DNA of 64,000 nt from NCBI RefSeq assembly GCF_000423125.1, contig NZ_AUHJ01000009.1, positions 62,001-126,000 on the forward strand. The letters are read 5' to 3'. Positions 18,037 through 62,735 of this stretch are shown here, one piece after another (position 1 is the stretch's first letter; each line of letters begins with the position of its first letter). The stretch comes from Haliea salexigens DSM 19537 (GTDB lineage: Bacteria > Pseudomonadota > Gammaproteobacteria > Pseudomonadales > Halieaceae). Below the pieces are notes generated by a model that saw only the letters and a program-made list of their open reading frames with translations, had not been told where the DNA came from and searched no databases. The translations under genes were made by a program, and so were the position numbers.

Positions 18037-18062
18037 AACGGCCCGCAAGGGCCGTTTTTTTT
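18037..18062 (+). terminator. Rho-independent terminator of the PEP-CTERM gene
   Basis: AACGGCCC-GCAA-GGGCCGTT stem-loop followed by a run of eight T on the plus strand, 44 bases after the stop codon. Confidence 0.92.
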
Positions 18063-18198
18063 GGCAGGTCTGAAACGCGCCGCTTCCGGTCGAGTAACAC
18101 CAGACTGCAAGAAGGCGCACTCCAAAAGTGTTAAGCAAGTACAGCTATTCTGGTATAGCATCGCAACGCTACGACAAATTAACAATGGCCCACCACCT

Positions 18199-24856: not shown

Positions 24857-24931
24857 TTTCCAGGATTTTGAAGCAAACCAACCGGCTTGGGTGCAAGCAT
24901 CGCAACCAATAATTGCGAACATGGGCTTATT

Positions 24932-25831
24932 ATGAAGGTAATTTACTTCCAGGATCCGGAAGGCAATTTCGGGGATGAACTGAACCGCTGGCTGTGGCCC
25001 AGACTATTTGACGGCGCCGTTACCGGCTTTGGTCACCACGGTATCGAAACCCTGGAGGAAAACGGCAAGGAAAGCCTCCTTTTTTACGGAATCGGCACCA
25101 TCCTTGATGACCGAATACCGGTAGAGCCAAAGAAAATTATTTTTGGGAGCGGTTTTGGCTACGGTGCACCACTTTTTAACCTGAACAACTGTGACATCAG
25201 ATTCGTTCGGGGGCCCAAGACTGCAGAAGCCATCGGAGTACCAATCGACAAGGCACTAACAGACCCCGCCATTCTTCTGCGCCATTTCTTTCCAGTTGTG
25301 GCAAATGAAAACAAGGTTCACGACGTCTCTTTCATGCCTCACCACAGCACAACTAAAGGAGACTTTTGGGAAGATGCATGCAAGGACTCGGGCATAAATT
25401 ACATTAGCCCTATGGGGTTTGACGTAGAAGCTGTCGTTCAGCAAATTTCTTCCAGTCGGCTAGTGATCGCAGAAGCAATGCATGCCGCAATCGTGGCGGA
25501 CGCGTTTAGAGTTCCATGGATACCGGTAACCAGCGTACCTGAAACGAACCCTTTCAAATGGCAGGACTGGTGTGAATCACTCGACCTCAGATACCAGCCA
25601 CACACTATTACGCCCATCTACAGGAACGTGACTGGCAACCCGGCAAAAGATCTCATCAATAAAGTGAAAGCTCTCCTCCGGCGCCATGAACTTCGTGCCA
25701 TCAGCAAAAAGAGGGGCGCCACTATGCTGAGTGATACACGTGTGCTAGATGCACGTCGAATGAAGATGGATGAACTCGTTGAAGGCCTTCGAGACCACCT
25801 GCGAATAGATAGCGCAAAACCACCATGCTAA
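24932..25831 (+). CDS. Polysaccharide pyruvyl transferase family protein
   Basis: 299 residues from ATG 24932. It opens with VIYFQDPEGNFGDELNRWLW and continues with LFYGIGTILDD, IIFGSGFGYGAP, RFVRGPKTAEA and VIAEAMHAAIVADAFRVPW, the layout of the pyruvyltransferase/GT-B-like family that puts ketal pyruvate on EPS sugars. It overlaps the sulfotransferase gene by seven bases. The base composition is more AT-rich than upstream genes, and this continues to about 33 kb. It should add a negatively charged group to the polymer, together with the sulfotransferase. Confidence 0.78.
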   Translation: MKVIYFQDPEGNFGDELNRWLWPRLFDGAVTGFGHHGIETLEENGKESLLFYGIGTILDDRIPVEPKKIIFGSGFGYGAPLFNLNNCDIRFVRGPKTAEAIGVPIDKALTDPAILLRHFFPVVANENKVHDVSFMPHHSTTKGDFWEDACKDSGINYISPMGFDVEAVVQQISSSRLVIAEAMHAAIVADAFRVPWIPVTSVPETNPFKWQDWCESLDLRYQPHTITPIYRNVTGNPAKDLINKVKALLRRHELRAISKKRGATMLSDTRVLDARRMKMDELVEGLRDHLRIDSAKPPC

Positions 25832-27379: not shown

Positions 27380-29212
27380 CTAGACAGGCAATTGCTGCAA
27401 CCCAGCCTCAAATGCAGCGACTAGCTGTTGCTGCTCCCTCTCCGAGAGGCTCTGGTGCACCAGCTGCCAGCTCTTGCGAACATCGCCCGGTGGGCGTACT
27501 CCCAGCCTTATCCGACAAAAATCCTGCGTCTGACCTGCTGCGATCATCGACCGTACCCCGAGGTGACCGCCGTCACCACCGCCTCGGCGAACCTTCATTG
27601 TACCCACCTCGAGATCCATGTCGTCGTGAACCAGCACAACACGAGCCAGCTCCTCCGAACCGAGCATACGAAGGATAGTGCTGCCCGAATGGTTGATGGC
27701 CGCAGCCGGCTTCACCAACACTACTCGTTCACCTTCCAGTAGCCCTTCAGCAACTTGCCCCTCGGCTGTCTGCTGCCAGGTTATGTCCTGCTGCTGGGCG
27801 AATGCATCCAATGCAAGATGACCGGCGTTATGTCGGGTCAATCGATATTTGTCTCCGGGGTTCCCTAGCCCTACCAGAATGAAACGACCGTCACCTAGGG
27901 GGATGGCTGGTAGAGCCTCATCAGTGCCATCGACGAGTGCTGACGAGGTGTCACTGCCGGCCAGCGTGAAATCATACAGTCTCGGGCAACTTGTGCAGAA
28001 TTGTGACTTACCACATCGAACTTGCCAGCAAGCGATTGGATCCTCCCGATCAAAAATCAATCTCACGAGATGATCAACCCGGGAAGACCCCTTGAGCAGC
28101 ACCAGGTCACCAGGGCGTAGAACGTCGCTTAAATACATAGAGGCTTGACGCAACTCGCTAAAGCCTCGCAAGCGCTCCCGCTGCTCTGCGGTAGCTCGTT
28201 TGATGGCCCGATAGGCATGAGTTCCAACGAAAATAACTAGATCGGCAATTTCCAGGGCTTTCTCCGCCACCTGCGGGTAGAGCTTGGAAGCTGACCGAGA
28301 GTAATCAGAGAGTGTACCAATCACCATCACCTTGCGCGGAGCTGCCGCATCTCGTATGAAGGCCATTGGAGCGTCCAGCGACCAATAGGGTGCTTTCCAG
28401 TCATCCCTTACGAAGGTCACGCCATCGCTCCTGGTCACCACCTGCATCCGACCCTCACTGGGTTCCAGGGTTTGCAGATTAGCAATAGCCACGGGTAACT
28501 CCATCCCCGTCGCAAGAGCTACAGCCAGAGCACATAGGACGGAAAGAGCGAGGTGCTCACCATACAACCGGGTGGGCACGGCAAATTGCTCCCCATCGTA
28601 GGCCACCCTTAGGGTCAGCGGTTGTGGCCACGCAGATTTGCACTCCAACAACCGCAAATGGGCACCCTCGCTCCACCCCACCCAGATTACGTTTCCGTCC
28701 CACTCCTCTCCCCGCTGCCGCAGCAGAGGATCATCAATATTGAGAATTGCCGTACCATTCTCCGGCAACGCGTTGACGAGGCGAAACTTTTCGTTGGCAA
28801 TATCCTCAAGCCCAAAACCAGACCGGGCATGCTCTCGCTGAAACAGTGTCACAACGGCAATACGCGGTTTAAACAACCTGAGGGGCCAGTCCATAGCACC
28901 AGACTCCCCACCCGAAACCTCCAATACCGCATAGCGATCCTTGCGCCGAATAGAGGCTATGGTTCTGGCTACCATCACCGAGTCGTTAGACGATTGCTGC
29001 GTCTTGGTGACCGCACCCACACAGGACAGTAATCCGGCACTGAGATCCTTGGTGGTGGTCTTGCCAGCACTGCCGGTAATGGCAACAAACTCCACCTTGC
29101 CCGTGAAGGGTCTCCTCATTAACGCGAGCCCCAAGGATGTAACGACCTCGGTGCGCCAGCGAATTGTAGCGACCAAAGCCATAATTCGATTGGTCAAAGC
29201 GGATATAGTCAT
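27380..29212 (-). CDS. Mur ligase fused to a peptidyl-tRNA hydrolase domain
   Basis: 610 residues. Residues 40-400 are Mur-ligase-like: ITGSAGKTTT P-loop (47-54), a central segment, and a C-terminal part with VMVIGTLSDYSRSASKLYPQ as in MurF. A cysteine cluster (CGKSQFCTSC) lies near residue 405. Residues 443-610 are a whole Pth domain with all catalytic residues seen: Asn451 in GLGNPG, His461 in TRHNAG, the Asn in KPAAAINHSG and the Asp in HDDMDL, plus RRGGGDGGHLGVRS. Mur ligases form amide bonds with amino acids; Pth cleaves aminoacyl or peptidyl esters from tRNA. A bifunctional enzyme that uses or edits activated amino acids is plausible. It is not the housekeeping Pth, which is normally a single-domain protein. 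Confidence 0.85.
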   Translation of the reverse strand: MTISALTNRIMALVATIRWRTEVVTSLGLALMRRPFTGKVEFVAITGSAGKTTTKDLSAGLLSCVGAVTKTQQSSNDSVMVARTIASIRRKDRYAVLEVSGGESGAMDWPLRLFKPRIAVVTLFQREHARSGFGLEDIANEKFRLVNALPENGTAILNIDDPLLRQRGEEWDGNVIWVGWSEGAHLRLLECKSAWPQPLTLRVAYDGEQFAVPTRLYGEHLALSVLCALAVALATGMELPVAIANLQTLEPSEGRMQVVTRSDGVTFVRDDWKAPYWSLDAPMAFIRDAAAPRKVMVIGTLSDYSRSASKLYPQVAEKALEIADLVIFVGTHAYRAIKRATAEQRERLRGFSELRQASMYLSDVLRPGDLVLLKGSSRVDHLVRLIFDREDPIACWQVRCGKSQFCTSCPRLYDFTLAGSDTSSALVDGTDEALPAIPLGDGRFILVGLGNPGDKYRLTRHNAGHLALDAFAQQQDITWQQTAEGQVAEGLLEGERVVLVKPAAAINHSGSTILRMLGSEELARVVLVHDDMDLEVGTMKVRRGGGDGGHLGVRSMIAAGQTQDFCRIRLGVRPPGDVRKSWQLVHQSLSEREQQQLVAAFEAGLQQLPV

Positions 29213-29467: not shown

Positions 29468-30520
29468 ATGTTAGTGGACGGTTCTTGGGATTTGAAACAC
29501 CTCATACTCGCACTCGCAAAAAGCACCGGGCTCTTTGCCCTCAGCAGGCTCGTCACCGCCAATCAGGTGAGGATACTTGCCTATCACGGAATATGGATGG
29601 GTACGGGCCATTTCGGCAATTTTTTGTATATGAGCGCATGTAAGTTCCAGCGCAGAATGGAGTTGCTGGAAGAGTTGGACTACCCCGTAATCACCCTCAC
29701 TGACGCATTAGCAAAGCGCTGCAGCGGTGAACTACCGCGGGGTGCAACCGTTATCACTATCGATGATGGCTGGCAGAGCACATATGAACATATGCTCCCC
29801 ATCCTACAAACACGCAATTACCCTGCCACAGTTTATCTAACCACTTACTATTGCTTCAATCAGGCACCTGTTGTCGATGTTGCCTTGCAATATTGTATTC
29901 ATCAGATTGACCCAACAAGACACCCTTTCATACATGTACCAGAATATGATCTGGGACCACTTCCCATTGGCACCCGTACCGAGAAAGACCGGGTTCTGGG
30001 GGCCGCATCTGCTGTTGTAGCGCGGCTAGACAACGATTCCGCGAGGCAGCTGTTCTTACGCTCTCTCTGTCAACAAACGGGATTAGACTACGACTTCATG
30101 GCGGCAAACCGCCTCTTTCATCTTATGACTCCGATGGAAGTGAAGAAGATCTCAGAATCAGGCGTCGCGGTGGAATTACACACTCACCACCACAGAATCA
30201 CACACAAGGGCGTAGATTGCCTGGATGCCGAGCTTACAATCAACAGTGAGCGTATACAGGCGATTACCGGTCGTTTCCCCAGCCATTTTTGCTATCCAAG
30301 CGGCCGCTATTCACCCGAGGTCTGGCCAACACTCAGTGAGGCAGGCATAGCTTCAGCTACAACCACTGACATCGGGCTTGTGAACAGTCACTCGGACAAA
30401 TATGCGCTGCCGCGCATTCTGGACGGGCAAAACATTTCGGAATTAGAATTCGAGGCTGAGATGAGCGGCTTTTTGGAGCTGATCCGCCAGGCGCGACAAC
30501 TATTCAGACTTCGTGCGTGA
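29468..30520 (+). CDS. Polysaccharide deacetylase (NodB type)
   Basis: 350 residues. NodB motifs are present: VITIDDGWQSTYEH (motif 1 catalytic and metal Asp), VELHTHHHRITH (motif 2, metal histidines, in an unusual His-rich form) and FCYPSGRYSPEVW (motif 3). The N-terminal part (VRILAYHGIW) is the common beginning of the xylanase/chitin deacetylase group. No signal peptide is evident, so it may act on a lipid-linked intermediate in the cytoplasm. It begins a rightward group with two ATP-grasp genes. Removing N-acetyl groups would expose free amines, the acceptor that the surrounding amide ligases need. Confidence 0.82.
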   Translation: MLVDGSWDLKHLILALAKSTGLFALSRLVTANQVRILAYHGIWMGTGHFGNFLYMSACKFQRRMELLEELDYPVITLTDALAKRCSGELPRGATVITIDDGWQSTYEHMLPILQTRNYPATVYLTTYYCFNQAPVVDVALQYCIHQIDPTRHPFIHVPEYDLGPLPIGTRTEKDRVLGAASAVVARLDNDSARQLFLRSLCQQTGLDYDFMAANRLFHLMTPMEVKKISESGVAVELHTHHHRITHKGVDCLDAELTINSERIQAITGRFPSHFCYPSGRYSPEVWPTLSEAGIASATTTDIGLVNSHSDKYALPRILDGQNISELEFEAEMSGFLELIRQARQLFRLRA

Positions 30521-30583: not shown

Positions 30584-31675
30584 TTGGCAGATCACTCAAA
30601 AAAAACGCCTCCCGCTACGCTCACTGACATAGTACGTCAGACGCTACAACGAGGGAGGGAGGGCCACCTGCCTGTCTGCCGGCAGGTGGCGGAAATGCTT
30701 GTATTGCGCCTCGCGTACGGATTGGGGCCAAGACACTACCACGTTGCACGACACTGGCGCAGGGAACTCGCCTGGGAATTCAAGACAGGCTTTTGGAACT
30801 ACCCGAAATTCCGCCGCTTCCTAAACACGCTCAACCCTCCGGCATACCAAAAAATCTCGCAGAGTAAACTTAGCGAAAAGGCCGTTTTGGAGCTTCTGAA
30901 AATCCCAACGCCCCGGTTTCTGGGCCGCTTTCATGCACACCTCGGTGTAGCTGAAACAGGTGCTCGCTTGATCAATAGCACAGATTTGACGGAACTATTG
31001 CATAGCCACCCGGAAGTAGATCGACTGTGTTTCAAATTAGTTGAAGGCTACGGGGGCGAGGGCTTTCGCGCGGTAAAAGTAATACGAGAAAAGACATTGA
31101 CCTTCAGTTTACTAGATACAGGCCAGGCAGTAGAAATCCCCAGATTTGTCGACGAGTTTCTGCAACTCACCGCAGGAGCTGACTACGTCATTGAAGAATA
31201 TCTTCAGCAACACCCCAAACTTGCAAGCTTCAACGCTTCCAGCGTCAACAGCCTAAGAATCTGGGCTGTCAGTACAGGTAACAATGGAGCTTTACTCGGC
31301 GCCTTCCTTCGGGTGGGCCGATACGGAAGTCTGGTCGACAATACGAGCCAAGGTGCTCTTGCGTTTCCTATCGACATGGAATCCGGCGAAATAGGTCGAG
31401 GGCTGATCCTAAATATTTGGAACGAAACCTTCGAGTGCCATAAGGATTCGGGAGTGAAAATCACCGGGGAGAGTGTGCCCTACTGGAGCGAGGCCGTGGA
31501 TCTGGCGATACGTGCAGTCGCGGCTTTCCCTCACCTACAATTCGCCGGCGTAGATGTTGCAATTGCTGCTGAGGGGCCAGTTGTTATCGAGCTCAATGTG
31601 GAACCGGACCCAACCGCCAGCATAGTTTTCGATCGACCTCATCGAGAAATTTTTAGCCAGTTCGACACCACTTGA
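30584..31675 (+). CDS. Sugar-transfer-associated ATP-grasp protein
   Basis: 363 residues from a TTG start. ATP-grasp features are KLSEKAVLELLKIPTPRFLG early, FKLVEGYGGEGFRAVKV for the ATP-binding lysine loop, YVIEEYLQQHP, and the final FAGVDVAIAAEGPVVIELNV with the metal-binding Glu and Asn. This matches my recollection of the ATP-grasp family found beside glycosyltransferases in EPS loci, presumed to link carboxylates such as amino acids to sugars. It is followed by a related gene at 31949 after a 273-base gap without a visible gene. Confidence 0.75.
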   Translation: MADHSKKTPPATLTDIVRQTLQRGREGHLPVCRQVAEMLVLRLAYGLGPRHYHVARHWRRELAWEFKTGFWNYPKFRRFLNTLNPPAYQKISQSKLSEKAVLELLKIPTPRFLGRFHAHLGVAETGARLINSTDLTELLHSHPEVDRLCFKLVEGYGGEGFRAVKVIREKTLTFSLLDTGQAVEIPRFVDEFLQLTAGADYVIEEYLQQHPKLASFNASSVNSLRIWAVSTGNNGALLGAFLRVGRYGSLVDNTSQGALAFPIDMESGEIGRGLILNIWNETFECHKDSGVKITGESVPYWSEAVDLAIRAVAAFPHLQFAGVDVAIAAEGPVVIELNVEPDPTASIVFDRPHREIFSQFDTT

Positions 31676-31948
31676 AACAGAGTCAACTACCTAAACTTTG
31701 TGAGGCCTTCGCGCAAGAGCGCAGAATCAAGCACGGGAAAGAGCCAAAATATTTCAGAAAAACCGATGGCACCATGTTCAGCAATCTCGCTCGGAGCAGC
31801 TTAGTTCAGTGACCGAGAATATATTAAGATCGCTTCGTCATCTATTATTCAATAGCCTTTGGGCCAGAGCCCGGGTAACAATGCCAAATACAAACGCTCA
31901 TAAAGATGAAAGACAGGGCTTTTCTGTCTACTCACGAGTAAGTTGACT

Positions 31949-33118
31949 ATGCTTAATCAGTATAAAAATAAGATGATTGAAATTTTCAAGATGGCAGAGG
32001 AGGTACATAGGCAAACCGGTCGTAGCTACCTTACCCAGGCGCAGGACATACGCAAACTTTGTCGGGCCAATTCGACATGCAGAATATGGGATTACTACAA
32101 ACTTGGAATTTACCAACACGAAAACGTCAATGCACGACTAGCTCGCTCGTATCTCGGTGAAAGTTCGCTGGCGGCTGCTAGCGTAGCACTCAACCCTAGG
32201 CACGCAGTGACAGCCGCATGGGACAAGTTAGTTTTCGATATGATCGCTCAGCTTCACGACTTGCCAACGGCACATAATATGGCTGTTTTCAAACCGGCAA
32301 GTGCTCTACCCAGCTATATTCCCCAACCACTCCACACGCGAAAAAGCCTGGTACGCTTTCTGTCCAATCCATCGTCATACCCCTTGTTCATGAAGCCAGT
32401 CCATGCACAACAGAATATTGGAGGCTACTACCTCGACAGCTATAATCCGAGCACCGACACAGTCTCCGTCGGAGCGAGCTCTGAACTGACGTTATCGAAT
32501 CTGATCGAAACGACCATTGATCTACAAAGTGACTTGTACGACAGAAGTGCCGGCTATCTTTTTCAGACGCCCGTTAAGCAGCACGATTTACTGACATCGG
32601 TGACAGGGACAAGCGCCCCATCGGGACTGCGTTTCATCGTCCTCCAGGACCAGCACTCTTCAACCCCCAAAATTCACCGCTGCATTATGAAACTCGTTCG
32701 CCAAGGGAATTACAGCGATAATTTTCACAGTGGTAAAAACGGCAACATGATTGCCTATATCGACCCCGCAACAGGCTCCCTGTCGCAGGCTGTCACTGGG
32801 TACTGGCCCTTTGCGGTCGCCCACCAGTTTCACCCCACAACAGGATACGACCTGCTAAATCTGAAGATACCGATGTGGTCGAAGATAGTCGATACCGTGC
32901 TCAAGGCTTCCAGCGTCTTTGCGACAATGAAAATTCTCCACTGGGATGTGCTCGTTGGGCCAGAGGGCCCAGTGCTTCTTGAGCTGAATGATCTGGGTAG
33001 CACGAGTTTCGTACAACTCCACGGCACAGGGTTAATGGACGATTTTATGACTGATTTCATGCGTCGCAATGGGCAGCTGAAGCACCACAAAGATATAAGA
33101 AACCTGACAGGACAATGA
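31949..33118 (+). CDS. ATP-grasp-like protein, relative of the preceding gene
   Basis: 389 residues from ATG 31949; a TTG six bases earlier is possible. The C-terminus HWDVLVGPEGPVLLELNDLG closely parallels the metal-binding end of the 30584 gene (VDVAIAAEGPVVIELNV). The N-terminal and middle parts have diverged (SYPLFMKPVHAQQNIGGYYL may be the ATP loop). The last 60 residues hold a Gln and the basic tail expected of this family. It is probably another carboxylate-amine ligase acting on an EPS building block. Base composition is clearly AT-richer than the core EPS operon, a sign of separate origin. Confidence 0.6.
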   Translation: MLNQYKNKMIEIFKMAEEVHRQTGRSYLTQAQDIRKLCRANSTCRIWDYYKLGIYQHENVNARLARSYLGESSLAAASVALNPRHAVTAAWDKLVFDMIAQLHDLPTAHNMAVFKPASALPSYIPQPLHTRKSLVRFLSNPSSYPLFMKPVHAQQNIGGYYLDSYNPSTDTVSVGASSELTLSNLIETTIDLQSDLYDRSAGYLFQTPVKQHDLLTSVTGTSAPSGLRFIVLQDQHSSTPKIHRCIMKLVRQGNYSDNFHSGKNGNMIAYIDPATGSLSQAVTGYWPFAVAHQFHPTTGYDLLNLKIPMWSKIVDTVLKASSVFATMKILHWDVLVGPEGPVLLELNDLGSTSFVQLHGTGLMDDFMTDFMRRNGQLKHHKDIRNLTGQ

Positions 33119-37069: not shown

Positions 37070-37201
37070 GCTGAACTCTGTCTCGTAGCCGGGTAGTGGG
37101 GCGCTGAAGCTATTCCGCATCAGGCGATGTTCACATTGAAGGATAGCCTAAAAGGCACTCCACTACGAACCCGCTACGCCAGCGGGAAAGGAGAAATTTG
37201 C

Positions 37202-38170: not shown

Positions 38171-39689
38171 GGGGGCTGTCCCCCGGCAACAGAACCCTCA
38201 ATAAGCCGGTTCGCGCATGCACAAGCCTTACCAACTGCAGCTCCGGCCCTTCCGGACGGGACTCCAGTAACCACAAAAAGCCCAACACCAGAAAGAAGCA
38301 GATACCGCCTACGGCCACAGCGGCAAACAGCTGGGCCAATTGCCAGGGCATAGGTTCCGCGGCCCAGTGTGTGGGAAACATCCCGTTTACCAACAGAAAC
38401 ATGGCCAAGGCCGCCAGCCCCGGCTTGTACAGAATGTAAACTACCCGCCTCAAACCCAGAGCCATGTTGCGGCGCAGAACCATGTAGGCCACCACCAGCA
38501 CAAGAGACAGGGTGGCAAAGGTCGCGTACGCCACACCGAGTACGCCGTAGATTGGCAAGAACAGGTTCAAAAATATCACCATCAAAGTCAGACGCACAAC
38601 AATGATTGATGTGGCCCAGCGAATGCGGCCCAGCGCTATCAACACATTATTGGTACTGGACATCATAATCATTAACAATGTCGCCAGTGCCAACCATTGG
38701 ACCAGCGGTACTATATGGAGCCACTTTGCACCCAGTAAGGTCGGCACCAACAGATGCGCAACCGAGAAGATACCGACTGCCATGACGAAGCCTAGAATCA
38801 TCAAGGCACCCATCACATCACAGAAAACGTTCAACAATCGTGCCGGGTCCTTGTTAACTCTGGAATAGCCTGGGAACGCGGCGCGATTGATTGGTTCAGC
38901 CAACTCACGCAACAACTGGCCAGTCTCTTTCGACATCGACAGAGAACCCACCGCGGAAACCCCTGCCACACGCGATACCATGAAATTTTCAATATGCCGG
39001 TTGAAGAAATTGAGAATATTGTTCACCTGCAGCCAGGCGGAAAACGAAAACAACTCACGCCAGAAATCGAGGCGGAACCGGGGGCGGAAAGGCTGCATGA
39101 CATAACTGAGCAACACCAGCATCAGCGATGTAGACAACAACCCATACAACATCGCCCAATAACTTCTGAGTATAAATGCTAGCGGGATAGCGACAAAAAA
39201 CCCTGTCAGCTTGATAGAGAGCTGGAAGCGAAATTCCCTGTCAAAGGTCATGTGTTTTTGGAAATTTATTATGGCAACGTTCTTGACCCCATCGATCAAG
39301 AACAGAAGACACATGAAGCGCAGCACCGAGACCAGTCCAGGCTCTTTGAGCAGTTCAGCGGCCAACGGAGCAAACAGATAAAGCAGGCAGGAACTGACCA
39401 GCGAAAACAAAAAATGCAAGGTCCAGGCGGTATGGTAGTGAAGGTCGGTGGCGTCCTGATTCTGAATCAGCGCAGTACCGAAGCCGAATGCCCTGATCAG
39501 TTCTACAAAGGCATAGACCGACATCGCCAGGGCATAAATGCCAAAATCTGATGGCGTCAGCAGGCGCGCAAGAATCAGGGTGCTGACCACGCTAATGGAG
39601 CGACTGACCAGTCGAATAGACATGGTCCATACCGCTCCCTTGGCAATTGACTTGCCCACCCCACGCCGTGTGTGTGTTGACTCACCCAC
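38163..39689 (-). CDS. Wzx-like lipopolysaccharide/EPS flippase (MOP superfamily)
   Basis: 508 residues with about 12 to 14 membrane helices (for example LHFLFSLVSSCLLYLFAPLA, ALMILGFVMAVGIFSVAHLL). The N-terminus GVGKSIAKGAVWTMSIRLVS and LLTPSDFGIYALAMSVYAFV are typical of the polysaccharide transporter branch. It should flip the lipid-linked repeat unit to the periplasmic face, where the O-ligase-like protein and the chain-length protein act. Its start overlaps the upstream O-ligase stop by eight bases; the last 18 codons are basic and rich in loops. Confidence 0.9.
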   Translation of the reverse strand: MGESTHTRRGVGKSIAKGAVWTMSIRLVSRSISVVSTLILARLLTPSDFGIYALAMSVYAFVELIRAFGFGTALIQNQDATDLHYHTAWTLHFLFSLVSSCLLYLFAPLAAELLKEPGLVSVLRFMCLLFLIDGVKNVAIINFQKHMTFDREFRFQLSIKLTGFFVAIPLAFILRSYWAMLYGLLSTSLMLVLLSYVMQPFRPRFRLDFWRELFSFSAWLQVNNILNFFNRHIENFMVSRVAGVSAVGSLSMSKETGQLLRELAEPINRAAFPGYSRVNKDPARLLNVFCDVMGALMILGFVMAVGIFSVAHLLVPTLLGAKWLHIVPLVQWLALATLLMIMMSSTNNVLIALGRIRWATSIIVVRLTLMVIFLNLFLPIYGVLGVAYATFATLSLVLVVAYMVLRRNMALGLRRVVYILYKPGLAALAMFLLVNGMFPTHWAAEPMPWQLAQLFAAVAVGGICFFLVLGFLWLLESRPEGPELQLVRLVHARTGLLRVLLPGDSPRG

Positions 39690-41007
39690 GGCTGTGTTGC
39701 TCCCGCGTCAGATCCCGTCCCAAACCGAGTAGCGACTGCCGCTGCAGTGTCATTACCGCGATGATGCCCAGAACGGCATACAGCAGGTCGAAATAGGCGA
39801 GGCTTACATTGGCGCCAGTAATGCCGTAACCGACTAGCGACAAGGTCAGTGCATTGGCTAGCTGCCGGTACCAAAGTACCCCGTGTTCCTTACCGAGGTC
39901 CGCGTTCTTCATACTACTAAACAGCGCCAACGCGAGAAACATTAGGAAAATGAAAAGCCCCGGGAAGCCGTGATCCCCCAGTACCTGAAAATAAATATTA
40001 TGGGCCGCCTTGGAGCCACTGTGTGGCGGGATTGGAGGCGTCGCCACCGGCGAAAAACCCGGTGTCTCAGGGGCGTAATAGCTCCATAGATTTGGATCCA
40101 GCACCGAGCGGAACCCGCCACCGGTCAAAGGGTGATCCAGCGCTATCAACGTCGATATTTTCCATGCCCAGAGCCGGCCAATAAAGGAGCTGTCTTCCTC
40201 GACGGCGGTCGCAATTGTCGCCTGCCGCTCACGCCAGTCTTCCGGCGCACTCTGATACAGCACAGGTAGCATTGAAAACGCCAGCAAAACCAGCACCCCC
40301 TTGTGTCGTGACTTCAACCAGAAGGCGAACGCCAGAATAGCCAAGCCTATAAAGCCTCCGCGCGAGCCGGTTCCAACGATACTGATAATGTTCAAGCCCA
40401 CCATTCCCAAAAGGCCCATTCTGACCATCTTGTGCTCCGTGACCTGAACAAGATAAACGATGAGGGGTATGCACATATTGATAGCCACTGCCAGATCGTT
40501 GCGATCCGCGATAATCCCTGCCCTGCCAACAATTCTGTGGCCACCACCAGAAAGTATGAACTTTACCGCCTCCATCGCCGCATAGGCTGATATCCCTAAA
40601 ACGATAGTCCACACCAGTACATCAATATGCAGCCTCTTGCGAATTATCAGAGTGATAAAGAAAAACAACAGCAGAACTTTGACAAACTGGTTCCAGTACG
40701 CCCAAACATTCTGAGGGTTGGAGTTCAAGTTGAATAGCGTACTCATAAGTGTCCAGAAACCAAACGCCAGTATCCAGAACCCAATGGCGTTCAGACGGAA
40801 CTCCTTGTGCTTCTCAACGAAGAGATAAGACAGCATCGTCACCAACACAATGGTCAGGTTCAACCTGAAGCTTTGGGAAAACCCGAACGCCCAGTTAACC
40901 GGCGCAATCAGCGCTATCCACGTCCAAGCTGCCACGCCAATATAGGGCCGCCGGAAGGAGTAGTAGATGGCCACAAAAAGAAAGCCCACCAACAACAGAT
41001 CGCGCAT
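39682..41007 (-). CDS. Exosortase A system-associated O-antigen-ligase-like protein
   Basis: 441 residues from ATG 41007, the usual MRDLLLVGFLF beginning of this family, preceded by AGGA within the small upstream frame. Around 10 to 12 membrane helices surround a long periplasmic loop (about 270-340, with HSGSKAAHNIYFQVLGDHGF). The conserved residues of the family are in SIVGTGSRGGFIGLAILAFA and RRPYIGVAAWTWIALIAPV. Members are Wzy/WaaL-like: they polymerise or ligate lipid-linked glycans at the outer face of the inner membrane. The product is part of the EPS polymer or its transfer to PEP-CTERM proteins, still open. Confidence 0.9.
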   Translation of the reverse strand: MRDLLLVGFLFVAIYYSFRRPYIGVAAWTWIALIAPVNWAFGFSQSFRLNLTIVLVTMLSYLFVEKHKEFRLNAIGFWILAFGFWTLMSTLFNLNSNPQNVWAYWNQFVKVLLLFFFITLIIRKRLHIDVLVWTIVLGISAYAAMEAVKFILSGGGHRIVGRAGIIADRNDLAVAINMCIPLIVYLVQVTEHKMVRMGLLGMVGLNIISIVGTGSRGGFIGLAILAFAFWLKSRHKGVLVLLAFSMLPVLYQSAPEDWRERQATIATAVEEDSSFIGRLWAWKISTLIALDHPLTGGGFRSVLDPNLWSYYAPETPGFSPVATPPIPPHSGSKAAHNIYFQVLGDHGFPGLFIFLMFLALALFSSMKNADLGKEHGVLWYRQLANALTLSLVGYGITGANVSLAYFDLLYAVLGIIAVMTLQRQSLLGLGRDLTREQHSRG

Positions 41008-41090
41008 CAGTCGTCGTCCTGCCGATCGGCCCAGGAAAACAGGTAGCAGACGCATACAACGACAAGCAGCAAGAAGAGGCTGTCGATCAT
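41007..41090 (-). CDS. 27-residue membrane microprotein, coupled on both sides
   Basis: ATG at 41090 overlaps the stop of the upstream ligase-like gene (ATGA). The frame's own TGA overlaps the ATG of the O-ligase-like gene (TGATG), so the frame exactly fills the space between them. The product has a short acidic start (MIDSL), one hydrophobic helix (FLLLVVVCVCYLFSW) with two cysteines and a charged end (ADRQDDD): a single-span membrane peptide. The TGATG coupling could by itself be why the frame exists, to control O-ligase translation. A partner of the O-ligase or polymerase is the other reading. Frame conservation in related loci would be needed to decide. Confidence 0.55.
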   Translation of the reverse strand: MIDSLFLLLVVVCVCYLFSWADRQDDD

Positions 41091-44740: not shown

Positions 44741-46648
44741 TCACGCGGCCACCACAAACTGGTCGTCGCGCACCGTGGCCTGGAACATCAGCAGTGTCCA
44801 GAGAGGGGCACTGTGGTCACGCATGCCGGACTGGTGCTCATCGACAAGGCGTGCCAGATAACGCTGATTGAACAAGCCAGTCGCGGCAAGTCCACCGGAC
44901 TCGAGAAGGTCGCGAGGGAGGCGATCTTTCAGCGGACCTCGGAACCACTTCGCCAGCGGCACACCAAAGCCCATCTTGTCTCGATAGAGCACATCGTTGG
45001 GCAAATGCGGTTCAAGGGACTTCTTCAACAGGTACTTGCCCTCCTGCCCACGCAATTTCCACTCCGAGGGTAAGCCGGATACCCATTCCGTAAGTGGGTG
45101 ATCCAGGAACGGCACACGCACTTCCAGTGCATGCGCCATGCTGGCGCGGTCGACCTTGGTCAGGATGTCGCCAACGAGATACGTCTTCATATCGAGGTAC
45201 TGAATCATCGAGAGAGGGTCATCTGTCGGGCAATTGGCGGCATGCGCATCAAAAACCGAGTGCACAGAATAGCCCTGGAGTTCGCGCTTGAATGCATCAC
45301 TGAATAAAGCGGAGCGCTGCTCATCACTGCAAATGGACACCGAGTGCAGGTACGCCTGCACGGAGTTACGCGCCAGCGCCTGAAAGGTAGTTTTGGCACG
45401 AAACATCCGAGGCGCCCAGTCCGCTTTCGGATACAGGCGCCCCAGTGCACCAAACACCGGTGCGCGAATGCCAAGCGGCAGGGCCTGCCGCAAACGCTCC
45501 TCGTTCATGTGCCAGCGGTAACGCCGATACCCGGCAAAGTGCTCATCGCCGCCATCACCCGAAAGCGCCACCGTGACACGCTTCTTGGCCAGCTGGCACA
45601 CGCGAAACGTTGGAATTGCCGAACTGTCGGCATAGGGTTCGTCGTAAAGCACCGCCAGTTCGTCCAGCAAATCGAAGTCTTCGCTACCCACCGTCTCCTG
45701 AAAGTGGTTGGTGTGATAGCGTTCCGCTACCCGCGCTGCGTACTCGGTTTCATTGAACTGCTTGACGTCAAAGCCGATCGCACAGGTATTCACCGGCTCA
45801 TTCTGCAACTGCGCCATCATGGCGACAACAGCACTGGAATCAACACCGCCGGAGAGAAACGCACCCAACGGCACTTCCGCTACGAGCCTCACCTGTACGG
45901 CCTCACGCAGCCGGGCAAGGAGCTCCGCCTGTAGATCGGATTCGCTGGCGACAGCCACAGGTTGGAAGGGGATATCCCAGAATTGCTTTTGCTCCGGCAC
46001 AGGCATGCCGGCGCGCAAGAGCAGGGTATGGCCAGGACACAGCTTGTGCACTCCCTGGTAAATCGTTTTCGGCTCCGGCACATAACCGAGCGCAAAATAG
46101 TCTTCCACCGCGCGCGGATCCAGCTTTCTCGGCAAGCCCGGATGCGCTTTCAGCACTTTCAGCTCAGAGCCGAAAATCAATTGGCCATCCGCCAATACGC
46201 TATAGAAGAAAGGCTTGATGCCAAACCGGTCGCGCGCCAGAAACAGGCTGCGGGCGTTCTGATCATATAAAGCGAATGCGAACATGCCGCGAAAGCGGTC
46301 CACGCAACGCTCGCCCCAGGCCTGCCAGGCGTACAGGATAACTTCTGTATCACAATGGGTGCGGAACTGGTAACCCAGGCCTTGCAGCTCGCTCGCCAGT
46401 TCGCGGAAGTTGTAGATTTCACCGTTGTAGACCACGCACAGCTTGCCATCGGCACTGAACATCGGTTGCTGGCCGCTGGCCAGGTCGATAATCGACAAGC
46501 GCCGATGCGCTAGCCCTACCCCCGGCGCTGTGTAGAGGCCACCCTCGTCCGGCCCACGGTGAAACTGGGTCTGGTTCATGGCGGCCAGCAGACCGCGATC
46601 CGGTTCACGCTGCTCGGTGAGATCAAAGATGCCGGCGATGCCACACAT
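44741..46648 (-). CDS. Exosortase A system-associated glutamine amidotransferase
   Basis: 635 residues with the full asparagine synthase B layout. The N-terminus MCGIAGIFDLTEQ gives the nucleophile Cys2, followed by FHRGPDEGG, VVYNGEIYNF and DRFGIKPFFYS. The ATP-pyrophosphatase half has FLSGGVDSSAVVAMM and ALSGDGGDEHFAGYRRYRWH. It transfers amide nitrogen from glutamine to a carboxylate, and in EPS loci is believed to amidate a uronic acid sugar. That fits the TviB-like dehydrogenase at 60385, which would make the uronic acid. Contrast the 21033 gene, which lacks Cys2. Confidence 0.92.
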   Translation of the reverse strand: MCGIAGIFDLTEQREPDRGLLAAMNQTQFHRGPDEGGLYTAPGVGLAHRRLSIIDLASGQQPMFSADGKLCVVYNGEIYNFRELASELQGLGYQFRTHCDTEVILYAWQAWGERCVDRFRGMFAFALYDQNARSLFLARDRFGIKPFFYSVLADGQLIFGSELKVLKAHPGLPRKLDPRAVEDYFALGYVPEPKTIYQGVHKLCPGHTLLLRAGMPVPEQKQFWDIPFQPVAVASESDLQAELLARLREAVQVRLVAEVPLGAFLSGGVDSSAVVAMMAQLQNEPVNTCAIGFDVKQFNETEYAARVAERYHTNHFQETVGSEDFDLLDELAVLYDEPYADSSAIPTFRVCQLAKKRVTVALSGDGGDEHFAGYRRYRWHMNEERLRQALPLGIRAPVFGALGRLYPKADWAPRMFRAKTTFQALARNSVQAYLHSVSICSDEQRSALFSDAFKRELQGYSVHSVFDAHAANCPTDDPLSMIQYLDMKTYLVGDILTKVDRASMAHALEVRVPFLDHPLTEWVSGLPSEWKLRGQEGKYLLKKSLEPHLPNDVLYRDKMGFGVPLAKWFRGPLKDRLPRDLLESGGLAATGLFNQRYLARLVDEHQSGMRDHSAPLWTLLMFQATVRDDQFVVAA

Positions 46649-47888: not shown

Positions 47889-49442
47889 TTACTGAGAAGC
47901 CAGCCCTTGACTCACGGCATCGGCAATCGAGGAGAGCTGTGCAGCTGTAATTGCTTCAAGCGCCGCCCGCGCATCTTCTGGCACATCCCCAGGTATCTGC
48001 GTCGCCACGAAAACGCGAGCTCCTGTCCTGCGTGCCTGCAGAAGCTTCTGCTGTGCCTCGAGAAACTTGGCGACATACGGGTTGGCTACGTTGCGACCCG
48101 CGATGTGGTACCACGACCACACCAGATATTTCGTACCACCATGGCGTATCTGGACTTCTTCTATGGCATCCAGTGACCCAATGTCCACCGTCATTCGCTG
48201 CTGATCCACAACCCGCCATAGCTGACGTGGCTCGGGCCTCCAGGGCTCTGCACTGGCAACCAGCTCCGAGCCTTGGCTCTGGGTCAGGAATTGCCGCAGA
48301 AAGAGCGCTACCGGCTGAGGACCTGAATAGAACTGATCCAATTCCCGGTCAGCGCCAGCCACGTCCGGCTGCCAGAACTCCGGTAACCTGGCTATGGGCT
48401 GCCACACACCCTCTGGCTGCGACAAGGTGAGCGGCGCCATCTGTCCGAGAGGCGCCTCCCTCTCCAGAGTCCACCAGGTTGCAGCCGGCCAAATCGCCGC
48501 CAAAATCACCGCACAGGCCGCGACAAACGCAAGCGAGCCGGAGGCCGGGGTACCGGCGGCGACCACACCAACGCCCGAATCGATGTCAGCTGTCGTATCC
48601 TCTTGCCAGAAGCCGCCTGCCCAAAACAGGATAACCATTACCAGCCCGAAAAAACCCCAGCCGTACACGAGGTGGTCTACACCCACACCCAGACGCATAT
48701 CACTCAAATGCCCCATCATAACAACGCCGTAGGCGCGCAGGCTGTTCGCCAGTATGGGAACGACGATTGAAGCGATAACGAACAACAGCCTGCGCTGCAG
48801 GCTGCTGTAGGTGAGATAGGCGTAAATCAGGCCAAGGGTGAATGAAGCGATCAAATAGCGAACACCGCTACATTCAGCGATGACCGACCAGGTACCCGTG
48901 GGCAAATACAAATACATGCCTTCCCGATAAAGCGGAACACCGCTCGCTCGGACCAGGTACTCTGTCGTTGTCGCGGTCAGGTTCATCAGCGGCGGAATCA
49001 ACTCTGCCCCCATGGGCACGGCAAGGAACAGAAACAGCAGGGGGAACGCCGCGCGCGCGGCCATCGCATTGCCAATGATGGCCCAGATGCCACTAACCAG
49101 AATCGCTACAAAAGCAAGTTGCTCCAGAACCCGCACGTCTACCATGTGCGCCAATAGCCATATCGCACCGAAAAGCACGACAAGCAGAAGCGCGTAGGGC
49201 TGCGGACGCACGGTCAGTGACGAGTAGGCACTTCTCTCTCGCCAAACGAGCCAGATACTGATCGGCATCACCAGGAATCCATGTGCGAACGTCTGCGACC
49301 GCGACCAAATATCGACCAGCGACAAAACGGTTTGATGGAAGATCAGAAATAGCAACAATACAAAAGCCACCAGCGTTACCAGAGCTAATGTTGCTTGCCC
49401 CCGCCCCGCGCGCGATTCAGTGATAGCTTGTGTCGATGTCAT
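47889..49442 (-). CDS. xrtA: Exosortase A fused to a C-terminal EpsI domain
   Basis: 517 residues. The first 270 form the multi-pass exosortase core with the catalytic triad visible: Cys191 in WSVIAECSGVRYLIAS, Arg236 in NSLRAYGVVMM and His257 in GVDHLVYGWGFFG. The later part, about 300-517, is the EpsI domain (GVWQPIARLPEFWQP, YLVWSWYHIAGRNVANPYVA) joined in this protein, as in many XrtA proteins. It should cut the PEP-CTERM tail of exported proteins (three encoded in this window) in the inner membrane and pass them on. Its ATG overlaps the stop of the upstream transferase gene. Confidence 0.95.
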   Translation of the reverse strand: MTSTQAITESRAGRGQATLALVTLVAFVLLLFLIFHQTVLSLVDIWSRSQTFAHGFLVMPISIWLVWRERSAYSSLTVRPQPYALLLVVLFGAIWLLAHMVDVRVLEQLAFVAILVSGIWAIIGNAMAARAAFPLLFLFLAVPMGAELIPPLMNLTATTTEYLVRASGVPLYREGMYLYLPTGTWSVIAECSGVRYLIASFTLGLIYAYLTYSSLQRRLLFVIASIVVPILANSLRAYGVVMMGHLSDMRLGVGVDHLVYGWGFFGLVMVILFWAGGFWQEDTTADIDSGVGVVAAGTPASGSLAFVAACAVILAAIWPAATWWTLEREAPLGQMAPLTLSQPEGVWQPIARLPEFWQPDVAGADRELDQFYSGPQPVALFLRQFLTQSQGSELVASAEPWRPEPRQLWRVVDQQRMTVDIGSLDAIEEVQIRHGGTKYLVWSWYHIAGRNVANPYVAKFLEAQQKLLQARRTGARVFVATQIPGDVPEDARAALEAITAAQLSSIADAVSQGLASQ

Positions 49443-50750: not shown

Positions 50751-51782
50751 CTAACCCAAACTGCGCGCCAGCGGCGGCCCCAGCAGGTTCGCCATCGGCA
50801 ATGGCAGGCGCTGCCAAGCGTTGACCAACAACCGATACTTCGGGTTGTTGGGGTTCACATCAGGCACCTGATCACTGTTGACCAGAAAGTACTCGTAGGG
50901 CAACGCCTGTGGCTCAAAGCCCCAATGCTTCTTGAACTCGAAGGGCCCGGTGTCCCGCTTGCTGCGCCCGAAGTCGTACACGGTGATGCCTTCATCGGCA
51001 CTGCGCCGCATGAGGTCCCAGTACATGAAATGGTTGCAGCCGCGAATCGTGCGAGCCCGCGCAATGCTGCCGCCGTAATACGGCAACACTTCATTGCGGA
51101 AGTAGAAACTCATCACACCTGCAACGTCCTCATCACCCTGACGGATCATCAACACGCGACAATCCCGAGCAAACTCGCGACGCAAGGCTTCCAGATAGCG
51201 CCGGCTGAATACCGGCGTACCCAGATTGCGCACACTCTCGGCATACACGCGGTACAAGCGCTGTGTACCCTCAACCTCTTCACCCACAAGGCCCTCCTTG
51301 ATGCCCTTGCGGATCATGGCACGCTGCCGGTTGGGTATGGCCTTCAGGTTCGCATCGTTGTCTGCGGTGATTGGCTTGCGAAAAGTGTAATACAGCTCCT
51401 TGACCGGCCAGCCGCTGTCGCTTGCCTCGAGATTGCGCAGCTCCAGAGCATCGACCCCCAATGCGGTCGCCATCGCCGCGGCTTCATCACGCAACAACCG
51501 TGCGGCATCTGCGTTCGGCGTGGCAATGCCGCCATACACGCAGAACGGCAATCCGGACAGCTTGTACCCGAACAGACGGCTGCGCACTTCCGCCAATGGC
51601 AACACGCCGACGATGTCACCGCCCTGTTCCGCCAGCAGAAAGTGGCAGCGATGCCCCAGGGAACCTTCGAGTACCCTGCGCCAACCAAAACGGTGAAAGA
51701 AGGTTGCCTGCTCACACTGATCTACAAACCTGTCCCAGGCGGCTTCGTCACTGGCTTCGGCAGAGCGGACTCGCAGCGTCAC
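50751..51782 (-). CDS. FemAB-family XrtA/PEP-CTERM-associated protein
   Basis: 343 residues from a GTG overlapping the deacetylase stop. GNAT/FemAB-like fold: TFFHRFGWRRVLEGSLGHRC near the N-terminus, then IRKGIKEGLVGEEVEGTQRL, and the second acyltransferase half with VAGVMSFYFRNEVLPYYGGS and YDFGRSKRDTGPFEFKKHWG. FemAB proteins transfer amino acids from aminoacyl-tRNA to an amine or hydroxyl. In exosortase loci the enzyme is thought to add an amino acid to the EPS. This fits the ATP-grasp and Mur/Pth genes in the same region. Confidence 0.9.
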   Translation of the reverse strand: MTLRVRSAEASDEAAWDRFVDQCEQATFFHRFGWRRVLEGSLGHRCHFLLAEQGGDIVGVLPLAEVRSRLFGYKLSGLPFCVYGGIATPNADAARLLRDEAAAMATALGVDALELRNLEASDSGWPVKELYYTFRKPITADNDANLKAIPNRQRAMIRKGIKEGLVGEEVEGTQRLYRVYAESVRNLGTPVFSRRYLEALRREFARDCRVLMIRQGDEDVAGVMSFYFRNEVLPYYGGSIARARTIRGCNHFMYWDLMRRSADEGITVYDFGRSKRDTGPFEFKKHWGFEPQALPYEYFLVNSDQVPDVNPNNPKYRLLVNAWQRLPLPMANLLGPPLARSLG

Positions 51783-60384: not shown

Positions 60385-61713
60385 TTACAACCGCCAGAGC
60401 GCCAGTCCGGCCTCCGCGGCCGCATTCCGGTCAAGCACGCCCTTGACGTCGATGACGACGCCACCCGGCGCCAGAATCGGCGCTACCAGCGCCAGCCCCT
60501 TGCCCACATACTCGGCGTGCGGCACGGCGAATACCACCGCATGGGCAGGCGGCAATGCCTCCCACGCGACCAGCTCAATACCGTACTCTTCTTCGGCTTC
60601 TGCCGCGTCGGCCAGTGGATCGTGCACGCTCACGTCACAGCAGTAATCCTGCAGTTCGCGGATGATATCTTCCACACGGGAGTTGCGCAGATCCGGACAG
60701 TTCTCCTTGAAGGTGAGGCCGAGCACCGTCACCCGGGCGCCTGCCACCGGATGGCCGCGGCTCACCAGCTGCTTGACGGTCTGTTCGGCAATGAACTTGC
60801 CCATACCATCATTGGTCTTGCGCCCGCCAAGCACCACCTGCGGATGATAGCCTGCACTTTCCGCCTTGTAGGTCAGGTAGTAGGGGTCGACACCGATGCA
60901 GTGACCTCCCACCAGGCCGGGCCGGAATGGCAGGAAGTTCCACTTGGTGCCCGCCGCCTCCAGCACATCCAGCGTGTCGATACCCAGCTTGTTGAAAATC
61001 ATCGCCAGCTCGTTCATCAGGGCAATGTTAAGGTCGCGCTGGGTATTCTCGATGACCTTGGCCGCCTCTGCCACCTTCACGCTGGCGGCGCGATGCACAC
61101 CCACTTCCACCACCGTCTCGTAGAGTTGGGCCACACGCTCCAGCGTTGCGGGTGTGTCGCCGGAGACCACTTTGGTGATGGTTTCCAGGCGGTGCACCTT
61201 GTCACCCGGGTTGATGCGCTCGGGGGAATACCCGATAAAGAAACCACTGTCGGCCGCCACATCCTCCCCGCTGCGCCCCGCCCAGGGCAAGCCCGATCCC
61301 GCCTCCAATAGCGGCACGCAGACTTCCTCGGTACACCCCGGGTACACGGTGGACTCGTAGATAACCACCGTGCCCGGGCGCAGGTGCTCTGCCACAGCAC
61401 GCGAGGCGCCTTCCAGTGGGCTGAGGTCGGGGCGATGCGCGTGGTCGATGGGGGTAGGCACCACCACGATGATAATGGTTGCCTCGGCCAGTGCCGCAGC
61501 TTCGCTGGTAAACTCAAGCTGCGCAGCGGAGGCAAGCGCCTCAGGGGACACCTCTCCGCTGGGGTCATGCCCCGCCCGGTAGTGGTCCAGTTTGCGCGCA
61601 TTCAGGTCGAAGCCGATTGTCCGCCGGGTGCGACCAAACGCCACGGCCAGCGGCAGGCCCACATAGCCCAGGCCAACAATTGCTACGGTTTCTTGCATGG
61701 ATGAATCGCTCAT
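60385..61713 (-). CDS. tviB: UDP-N-acetyl-hexosamine 6-dehydrogenase (TviB/WbpA type)
   Basis: 442 residues. ATG 61713 overlaps the TGA of the epimerase gene (ATGA); ATG 61698 is also in frame. NAD fold [18 protein letters not shown], then [52 protein letters not shown] and the catalytic cysteine in [20 protein letters not shown]. It oxidises C6 of UDP-GlcNAc (or an isomer) to the uronic acid. The carboxylate so made is a natural substrate of the amidotransferase (44741) and of amide ligases in the region. Confidence 0.9.
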
Positions 61714-62735
61714 TTGGAAGACTGCCCCATAAACCACGCTGCCGTACGTGACAGCCCCTCGCCAACGTCAAAGGCAGGCGTATACCCCAAAAGCTGCCCC
61801 GCTTTGCTGATGTCGGCCTGCGAATGACGCACATCGCCTTCCCGAAACGCGCCATACACCGGCTCCAGCGTCGCCAGTTCCGGCTGACGCGCGCTGAGGA
61901 GGTCGCGTATGCCGTAGTACAACTCGTTGAGCGTGGTGCGGCCGCCAAAGGCCACGTTGTACACCTGGTTCACCGCCTCCGGGGAATCCGCTGTGGCGGC
62001 CAGCACGTTGGCCTGAACGACATTGTCGATGTAGCAGAAATCGCGCGACGTTTCGCCATCGCCATTGATCTGGCAGCGCTGCCCGGCTGTCAACTCGCCA
62101 AACCAGCGTGGAATGACTGCGGCATAGGCACCTTCGGGGTCCTGCCGCGGGCCGAACACATTGAAATAGCGCAGGCCAATGGTCTGCATGCCGTAGGCGC
62201 GTCCGAACACATCGGCGTAAAGCTCGTTGACGTACTTGGTAACAGCGTAGGGTGACAACGGCTTGCCAATCTCGTCCTCGACCTTGGGCAGGCCGGGATG
62301 ATCTCCGTAGGTGGACGACGATGCGGCGTAAACGAAACGCTTGACTCCCGCATCGCGCGCCGCCACCAGCATATTGACGAAGCCGTCGATATTGGCGGCA
62401 TTGGTCAGGAGGGGATCCTCCAGTGACCTTGGCACACTCCCCAGCGCGGCCTCGTGCAGCACGTAATGTACGCCCTCGACCGCGCGCCGGCAGTCTGCCA
62501 GCGAGCGGATGTCTCCTTCGATGAATTCAAACGACCCGGCGCCGGCCGCTTCTTCTAACAGCGCATCCACATTGTGCTGGTGGCCCGTGGCGAAGTTATC
62601 CAGCGCACGCACCCGTTGCCCCAACTGCAGCAGCCGCTGACAAAGGTGGGAACCAATAAAACCCGCCGCACCCGTCACCAGCCACGTGACCGGACTTGCA
62701 CGCAGGGTGCCCTCCGTTGCTTCCAGTGTTGTCAT
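61710..62735 (-). CDS. tviC: UDP-sugar 4-epimerase (TviC/WbpP type)
   Basis: 341 residues. ATG 62735 is preferred, as the twelve codons further upstream look non-coding; an upstream in-frame codon exists at 62771. Extended SDR with [19 protein letters not shown] (NAD loop), the Tyr/Lys pair in [19 protein letters not shown] and [20 protein letters not shown]. It interconverts GlcNAc and GalNAc (or their uronic acids) on UDP. Together with the coupled TviB-like dehydrogenase it gives UDP-HexNAcA for the EPS. Confidence 0.88.

Follow-up and report, generated by a model that had tools for sequence, protein, structure and literature searches.

Among the described systems closest to the protein reported here, MurF is the UDP-MurNAc-tripeptide:D-Ala-D-Ala ligase, and the UDP-independent Mur ligases include the C-terminal part of cyanophycin synthetase, folylpolyglutamate synthase and PgsB/CapB. 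In the MurT/GatD amidotransferase, a Mur-type ligase with four cysteines in its middle domain is paired with GatD. Peptidyl-tRNA hydrolase (Pth) is a housekeeping enzyme that recycles tRNA; its plant relative CRS2 has a binding rather than a hydrolase role. Both domain families are already known, and their combination in one protein has apparently not been described in the open-licence PMC literature: judged by title and the start of the abstract, we found no account of a Mur-Pth fusion there, and the 2006 PEP-CTERM paper (PMC1569441) makes no mention of a ligase, tRNA, an amidotransferase or an acetyltransferase. The phaseolotoxin cluster was considered as a precedent for a ligase with a Pth and was rejected, as the excerpted source gives a Phyre2 similarity of only 16.3% confidence.

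Here we analyse such a fusion from Haliea, encoded in a 64-kb stretch of DNA that was studied as a whole (the window). Its Pth domain belongs to a distinct clade tied to a putative amide ligase, the Haliea gene is part of a locus for a sugar polymer, and the two domains also occur fused in the reverse order.

Domain organization of the fusion protein

A sequence-only reading of the window had proposed a Mur ligase and a Pth in a single chain, and this is borne out by one open reading frame, by Pfam and NCBIfam domains and by full-length homologues. The frame runs unbroken through 610 codons and a stop. Its features are listed below, with Pfam values from hmmscan of the 610-aa protein.

27380..29212, minus strand: gene for the Mur ligase-C4-Pth fusion, 610 aa (single ORF; Pfam and NCBIfam; AlphaFold2 model)
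29105..29209, minus strand: long helix, residues 2-36, where MurF has its N-terminal UDP-binding domain (DSSP of the model; MurF match)
28517..29080, minus strand: Mur_ligase_M, residues 45-232 (1e-27, 97.8 bits, cut-off 24), with the P-loop GSAGKTTT, residues 47-54, at 29051-29074
28085..28453, minus strand: Mur_ligase_C, residues 254-376 (3.7e-13, 50.9 bits, cut-off 28.4)
27986..28030, minus strand: four-Cys motif C395-X4-C400-X5-C406-X2-C409 (alignment of family rows)
27881..27985, minus strand: variable linker, residues 410-444 (model confidence; linker omega)
27404..27880, minus strand: Pth domain, Pept_tRNA_hydro PF01195, residues 445-603 (3e-41, 141.7 bits, cut-off 27), with N451, H461, N507 and D530, and L551 at the N114 position (Pfam; tree; alignment; fold match)

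The protein has both Mur domains and the P-loop of the Mur ligase superfamily, the latter as the sequence-only reading had it, and the fold agrees. In an AlphaFold2 model (alignment of 27 sequences; mean pLDDT 87.0, pTM 0.68), pLDDT falls under 50 at residues 418-433, between the halves. In a Foldseek comparison the first half aligns with MurF (4qdi, TM 0.74 by target length) and the second half with Pth (7y52, TM 0.79 by target length). K142 occupies what we take to be the position of the carbamylated lysine in Mur ligases. The top NCBIfam match is murF (TIGR01143; 177.7 bits, below the cut-off of 288.6). It covers the profile only from position 74 of 418 onwards, so the protein lacks MurF's N-terminal UDP-binding domain; the alignment to 4qdi begins at 4qdi residue 102. 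Ligation to a UDP-sugar, which the reading had also suggested, is therefore left without support.

Between the two halves the reading had noted a CX5CX2C cluster, which is present but is part of a motif of four cysteines, not three. All four are found in 15 of 15 Mur-Pth rows, in the one Pth-Mur row and in 14 of 16 Mur-only rows; the pattern is zinc-knob-like and may bind a metal. The Pth half had been called complete, with all catalytic residues. Asn451, His461, Asn507 and Asp530 (N10, H20, N68 and D93 in E. coli numbering) are indeed in place and the TIGR00447 pth profile gives 134 bits, above its cut-off of 100, but E. coli Asn114 is replaced by Leu551, the C-terminus is short and the match reaches no further than profile position 162 of 183, so that the earlier description was slightly too strong.

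Distribution of the fusion

A join in the assembly at 27880-27990, which had been suspected, is refuted by full-length homologues: three other genomes of the genus carry relatives of 78, 70 and 67% identity, which with Haliea makes 4 of the 8 genus genomes, and Nitrosomonas mobilis and a deltaproteobacterial MAG carry relatives of about 40%. We regard the Mur-Pth fusion as confirmed, a real two-domain protein with no assembly join. Further carriers are G827 in the same family as Haliea, G378 in the same class, three more genomes of the N. mobilis family (125 examined) and, in one deltaproteobacterial class (155 examined), two genomes in all. In the collected, BLAST-checked family (n = 32), 15 proteins from 12 genomes have the order Mur-Pth, each in one open frame, and one has the order Pth-Mur (G342). 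Homologues with both domains, which the sequence-only reading had said should be sought, therefore exist and do not always lack one half, though 16 of the 32 members are Mur-only. Counted among these 16, and kept in the Mur tree, are the broken ligase of G927, for which a 322-aa open piece was used, and G924_b (387 aa), which lies close to the end of its contig and stops short of the Cys motif.

The architecture is rare. In an even sample of the class (369 genomes) we found at least two Mur-Pth genomes, Haliea and G378, together with G342; in an even sample of the phylum (398 genomes), the fusion occurred in the Haliea genome only, among the candidates scored. These counts are lower bounds, the best three candidates per genome being scored in the class and phylum samples and the best four in a survey of the phyla of G905 and G906. 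That survey gave no further fusion among the best few candidates of 297 and 194 genomes, and a second G906 gene proved to be Mur-only, stopping after the four cysteines. In a tblastn search of plasmids, which returned 104 records, not one match extended over 80% of the query and no plasmid-borne fusion was found; the best match is a Mur-only gene on a Gemmobacter plasmid, adjoining glycosyltransferase and pyruvyl transferase genes.

The presence of a separate housekeeping pth had been named as a point to check. It is there in Haliea, and an ordinary Pth spanning at least 180 of 183 profile positions is found in all 18 genomes checked (a set that leaves out G921, G924, G937, G993, G1036 and G1094); the fused Pth half is therefore an addition. 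The seven Mur-only genomes among these 18 have no second Pth, free-standing or fused, beyond the ordinary one.

An XrtA/PEP-CTERM exopolysaccharide locus

The 64-kb window is an XrtA/PEP-CTERM exopolysaccharide locus. It contains matches to TIGR03109, TIGR03019, TIGR03006, TIGR03018, TIGR03007, TIGR03027 and TIGR03016, each above cut-off, and it encodes chain-length and export proteins, deacetylases and glycosyltransferases. The genes that bear on the fusion are these:

24887..25831, plus strand: polysaccharide pyruvyl transferase family gene (PF04230)
29468..30520, plus strand: neighbouring polysaccharide deacetylase (PF01522)
30584..31675, plus strand: neighbouring ATPgrasp_ST ligase (PF14397, 1e-39)
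31943..33118, plus strand: second ATPgrasp_ST ligase (PF14397, 9.4e-29)
39682..41055, minus strand: PEP_O_lig_1, exosortase A-associated (TIGR03097)
44741..46648, minus strand: XrtA/PEP-CTERM amidotransferase, asparagine-synthase type (TIGR03108, 1059 bits)
47889..49442, minus strand: exosortase A (TIGR03109)
50751..51782, minus strand: FemAB family XrtA/PEP-CTERM protein (TIGR03019, 466 bits)
60385..61737, minus strand: nucleotide sugar dehydrogenase, TviB-like (NF011729, 458.7 bits, below the cut-off of 592; TIGR03026, 361.4 bits, above cut-off)

The Pfam and NCBIfam matches support the earlier view that the protein has two domains and that its sugar-polymer locus encodes several enzymes that form amides. 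Of the genes said to lie near it, the ATP-grasp and deacetylase genes are true neighbours, but FemAB, in the same locus, is about 21.5 kb from the fusion gene. The TviB-like dehydrogenase would be expected to make a sugar carboxylate.

When neighbours were grouped by BLAST across 23 contexts, the gene that recurred most regularly near the ligase was of the ATPgrasp_ST type, being present in 13 of them at 16 to 4017 bases. PF14397 was confirmed by hmmscan or genome search in G000, G003, G005, G007, G008, G017, G827, G904 and G905; in G921, G927, G937 and G993 the assignment comes from BLAST grouping alone. In the other ten contexts, several of them short contigs, no ATPgrasp_ST gene was seen (G137, G342, G365, G378, G464, G483, G906, G924, G1036 and G1094). 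In G137 an asparagine-synthase-type gene adjoins the ligase gene; near the G378 ligase, where gene calls are disturbed by high-GC antisense frames, two frames scanned matched no Pfam family. The neighbourhoods in N. mobilis and G937 further include a RimK-like ATP-grasp ligase and a gene of the GNAT type. Among 140 genomes of the Haliea family, PF14397 occurs in 64. Weaker-scoring members (under 200 bits, a line drawn after the table had been seen, with one fragment set aside) occur in 7 of 7 ligase-bearing genomes versus 8 of 133 others (Fisher p 3.6e-8, with no correction for four of the seven genomes being of one genus).

Some other genes of these neighbourhoods deserve mention in their own right. 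At 18061-19953 (plus strand) of the window, a 630-aa protein carries both an ATP-grasp ligase part (CPSase_L_D2/ATPgrasp_Ter) and a low-molecular-weight protein tyrosine phosphatase domain, another unusual fusion within this locus. An 861-aa protein encoded at 34535-37120 (minus strand) is weakly similar to hydrazine synthase alpha and a TolB propeller; its relatives (cluster c14) lie close to the ligase in each of the other three genus genomes that have the fusion. Proteins of cluster c17, about 390-440 aa, are encoded near or beside the ligase in G905, G003, G008 and G927 (L012:9816-11135, L050:13759-14937, L054:7857-9152 and L128:10211-11464); the two members scanned gave no Pfam match.

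A proposed reaction

We tentatively favour the reading that the protein is an amide ligase of the exopolysaccharide locus with a built-in, functional Pth-type esterase whose role is to release or clear N-acylated aminoacyl-tRNA. The several amide-forming genes of the locus, FemAB among them, count in favour of this reading. So do purifying selection on both halves, the kept catalytic residues of the Pth, the separate clade of the fused Pth domains, the reverse-order fusion and the occurrence of weaker-scoring ATPgrasp_ST genes in ligase-bearing genomes. Weighing against it are the repeated loss of the Pth half, the Leu at the N114 position, the unconserved F66, the lower mean charge and the ten contexts in which no ATPgrasp_ST gene was seen. 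The Mur half would activate a carboxylate with ATP and couple it to an amine; the carboxylate could be a hexosaminuronic acid of the polymer, or else an amino acid or short peptide. If the amine were the alpha-amine of an aminoacyl-tRNA, the product would be an N-acyl-aminoacyl-tRNA, which is Pth's class of substrate, and the Pth half would cut the ester to give a free N-acyl amino acid and tRNA. That cut could be the regular release step, or it could serve to clear an unwanted by-product. Ligases without the fused half might be served by the housekeeping Pth acting in trans. A ligase product of this kind would explain both why a Pth, and not some other esterase, is attached and why that half is optional.

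If the halves do share a substrate, then either Pth chemistry serves the building of exopolysaccharide, or the ligase makes N-acyl-aminoacyl-tRNA and needs protection from it; the pairing hints at a link between tRNA and sugar-coat building. We consider it rather improbable that the Mur half N-acylates aminoacyl-tRNA so that tRNA is a carboxyl-protecting carrier and the fused Pth releases the product for the exopolysaccharide, in which case the role of the Pth would be biosynthetic and not one of cleaning up. Proofreading of free aminoacyl-tRNA, as the sequence-only reading had it, is unsupported because canonical Pth acts on N-blocked aminoacyl-tRNA. According to the excerpted text of PMC11994314, Pth accepts N-acetyl-aminoacyl-tRNA and not aminoacyl-tRNA, and Asn9 of the Thermus thermophilus enzyme distinguishes peptidyl- from aminoacyl-tRNA; the conserved N451 is the residue that tells N-acylated from free aminoacyl-tRNA.

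Residues, charge and selection in the Pth domain

The architecture of the protein, its conservation and its surroundings are established; ligation, the substrates, any part played by tRNA and the coupling of the halves are inferred. A new ester substrate has nearly the same likelihood as the tRNA step. The Pth half would then be a working hydrolase whose target is an ester, or an amide to be trimmed, on a sugar, amino sugar or nucleoside-linked intermediate from the Mur or ATP-grasp enzymes. Across the 15 fused Pth domains (alignment A1, in which row P0003 is without its last residues), N10, H20 and N68 are present in all and D93 in 14, with Glu in G905. F66 is not conserved, and the N114 position holds N in one, R in six, L in five, K in two and W in one. 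Both halves are under purifying selection within the genus and the linker is far less so: the Mur half gives an omega of 0.09-0.16 in 6 of 6 pairs, the Pth half 0.12-0.29 in the 5 of 6 that could be computed (the other being saturated) and the linker 0.37-0.86 in the 4 of 6 that could be computed, values that are rough since dS is high and partly saturated. Such retention of catalytic residues while N114 and F66 are replaced is consistent with hydrolysis of a substrate other than tRNA. So is charge, which averages +0.5 (range -5 to +12) in the 15 fused domains versus +2.4 in 18 housekeeping Pth; this lower mean speaks against tight tRNA binding.

Other residues argue for tRNA. K105 and R133 of Pth form what we take to be the clamp for the tRNA 5'-phosphate, and both positions are basic in 11 of the 15 fused domains, Haliea included, and in all 18 housekeeping enzymes; the four fused domains that lack a basic residue at one or the other are those of G003, G005, G007 and G827. 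The equation of N114 loss with a dead Pth is weakened as well. In the part of PMC11994314 that deals with the T. thermophilus enzyme, Arg103 stands at the N114 position and its replacement by Ala markedly lowers kcat/Km, so an Arg there is compatible with activity; K or R also occurs at this position in the housekeeping Pth of G905 and, as a likeness in sequence, in those of other taxa (L030, L032, L034 and L044). The Haliea protein has neither N114 nor this type of Arg, and Leu, found in 5 of 15 including Haliea, may lower tRNA hydrolysis.

Origin of the fused Pth domain

In a tree of 48 Pth domains (L026 was left out as too short and in the wrong frame), the 15 fused domains form one clade with support of 99/98, apart from the 32 housekeeping Pth. 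Two Myxococcota Pth are nearest to it, with weak support. The additional housekeeping rows (15 hand-picked from 36 Pth-only loci, of which 14 remained) lean towards the motif VHDDMDLE, one of the short Haliea peptides with which those loci were found. In the Mur tree the fused rows require six label changes, five of them forced by well supported branches; the 20-row clade that contains all Mur-Pth rows has five. The simplest reading is that Pth was gained once and later lost several times; the count of changes includes two Mur-only rows that are less certain than the others or lie near a contig end, G924_b above all. The Pth half thus seems to have been lost repeatedly and to be optional, not essential.

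The reverse-order gene of G342 (L064:9153-11066, minus strand) has Pth before Mur. Its Mur half groups with Mur-only rows, and placement within the Mur-Pth clade is rejected (p-AU 0.027, the group having been chosen after the tree was seen), while placement of its Pth within the fused clade is not (p-AU 0.206). The swapped order and the position of the Mur half favour a second fusion event, on the evidence of a single MAG that is 85% complete in 620 contigs. The ligase P-loop is altered to GSFAKTAT, and the gene lies close to thiC, near a contig end, with no recognised polysaccharide locus around it; the two other genomes of this family that were examined contain no relative with the reverse fusion.

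Several genomes have more than one gene of the family: there are three fused genes in N. mobilis and two in G921, and in G937 and G924 a fused gene adjoins a Mur-only gene. In the tandem N. mobilis pair b/c (L011:6739-10538), the Pth halves are 86% identical (dS 0.45) and the Mur halves 72% (dS 1.64), as if the Pth half had passed between diverged ligases by domain-wise gene conversion; the G921 pair (Pth 52%, Mur 69%) is without this pattern. A shared hydrolase serving differing ligases would leave the same trace, a further point for a substrate other than tRNA.

It is also conceivable, if unlikely, that the halves do unrelated jobs and that the second Pth is an extra copy hitch-hiking on the ligase gene. 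A separate Pth in all 18 genomes checked and a missing Pth half in 16 of 32 family members are consistent with this; the opposite-order fusion, the persistence of the fusion in distant taxa, the omega values, which lie far below 1 wherever they were computed, and the single Pth of the seven Mur-only genomes argue against it. We think it quite improbable that the Pth half is a non-catalytic module, comparable to CRS2, that binds tRNA or protein and brings aminoacyl-tRNA to the ligase. CRS2 structures are among the sequence matches of the fusion protein, and the fused domain departs from typical Pth at N114, at F66 and in its C-terminal tail, but N10, H20, N68 and D93 would be needless for binding alone. 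An assembly or sequencing artefact joining two genes is refuted by the 15 open frames in 12 genomes.

Comparison with known systems

Our preferred reading, an amide ligase with a built-in Pth-type esterase, can be set against the systems with which we began. The UDP-independent Mur ligases resemble the fusion in having a Mur core that works outside peptidoglycan, and cyanophycin synthetase (7lgj) is among the Foldseek matches, though similarity in sequence is low (TIGR02068, 27.1 bits); to our knowledge they have neither a Pth nor such a C-terminal four-Cys motif. MurT is likewise a Mur-type ligase with four cysteines, which lie in its middle domain, whereas those of the fusion follow the C-terminal domain.

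MurF entries are the top fold matches, and MurF shares with the fusion the Mur middle and C-terminal domains, the P-loop and the lysine at the carbamylated position. It differs in having a UDP-binding N-terminal domain, and the four-Cys motif and Pth belong to the fusion alone; in the stretch where two MurF of the Haliea family (L009, L010) read DDxYNAxPGS, the fusion reads RDDWKAPYWS. Pth1 (PF01195, TIGR00447) has the fold of the fused domain (7y52) and the same N10, H20, N68 and D93. Unlike the free-standing Pth1, the fused Pth of Haliea has Leu in place of N114 and a short C-terminus, and it belongs to a clade of its own.
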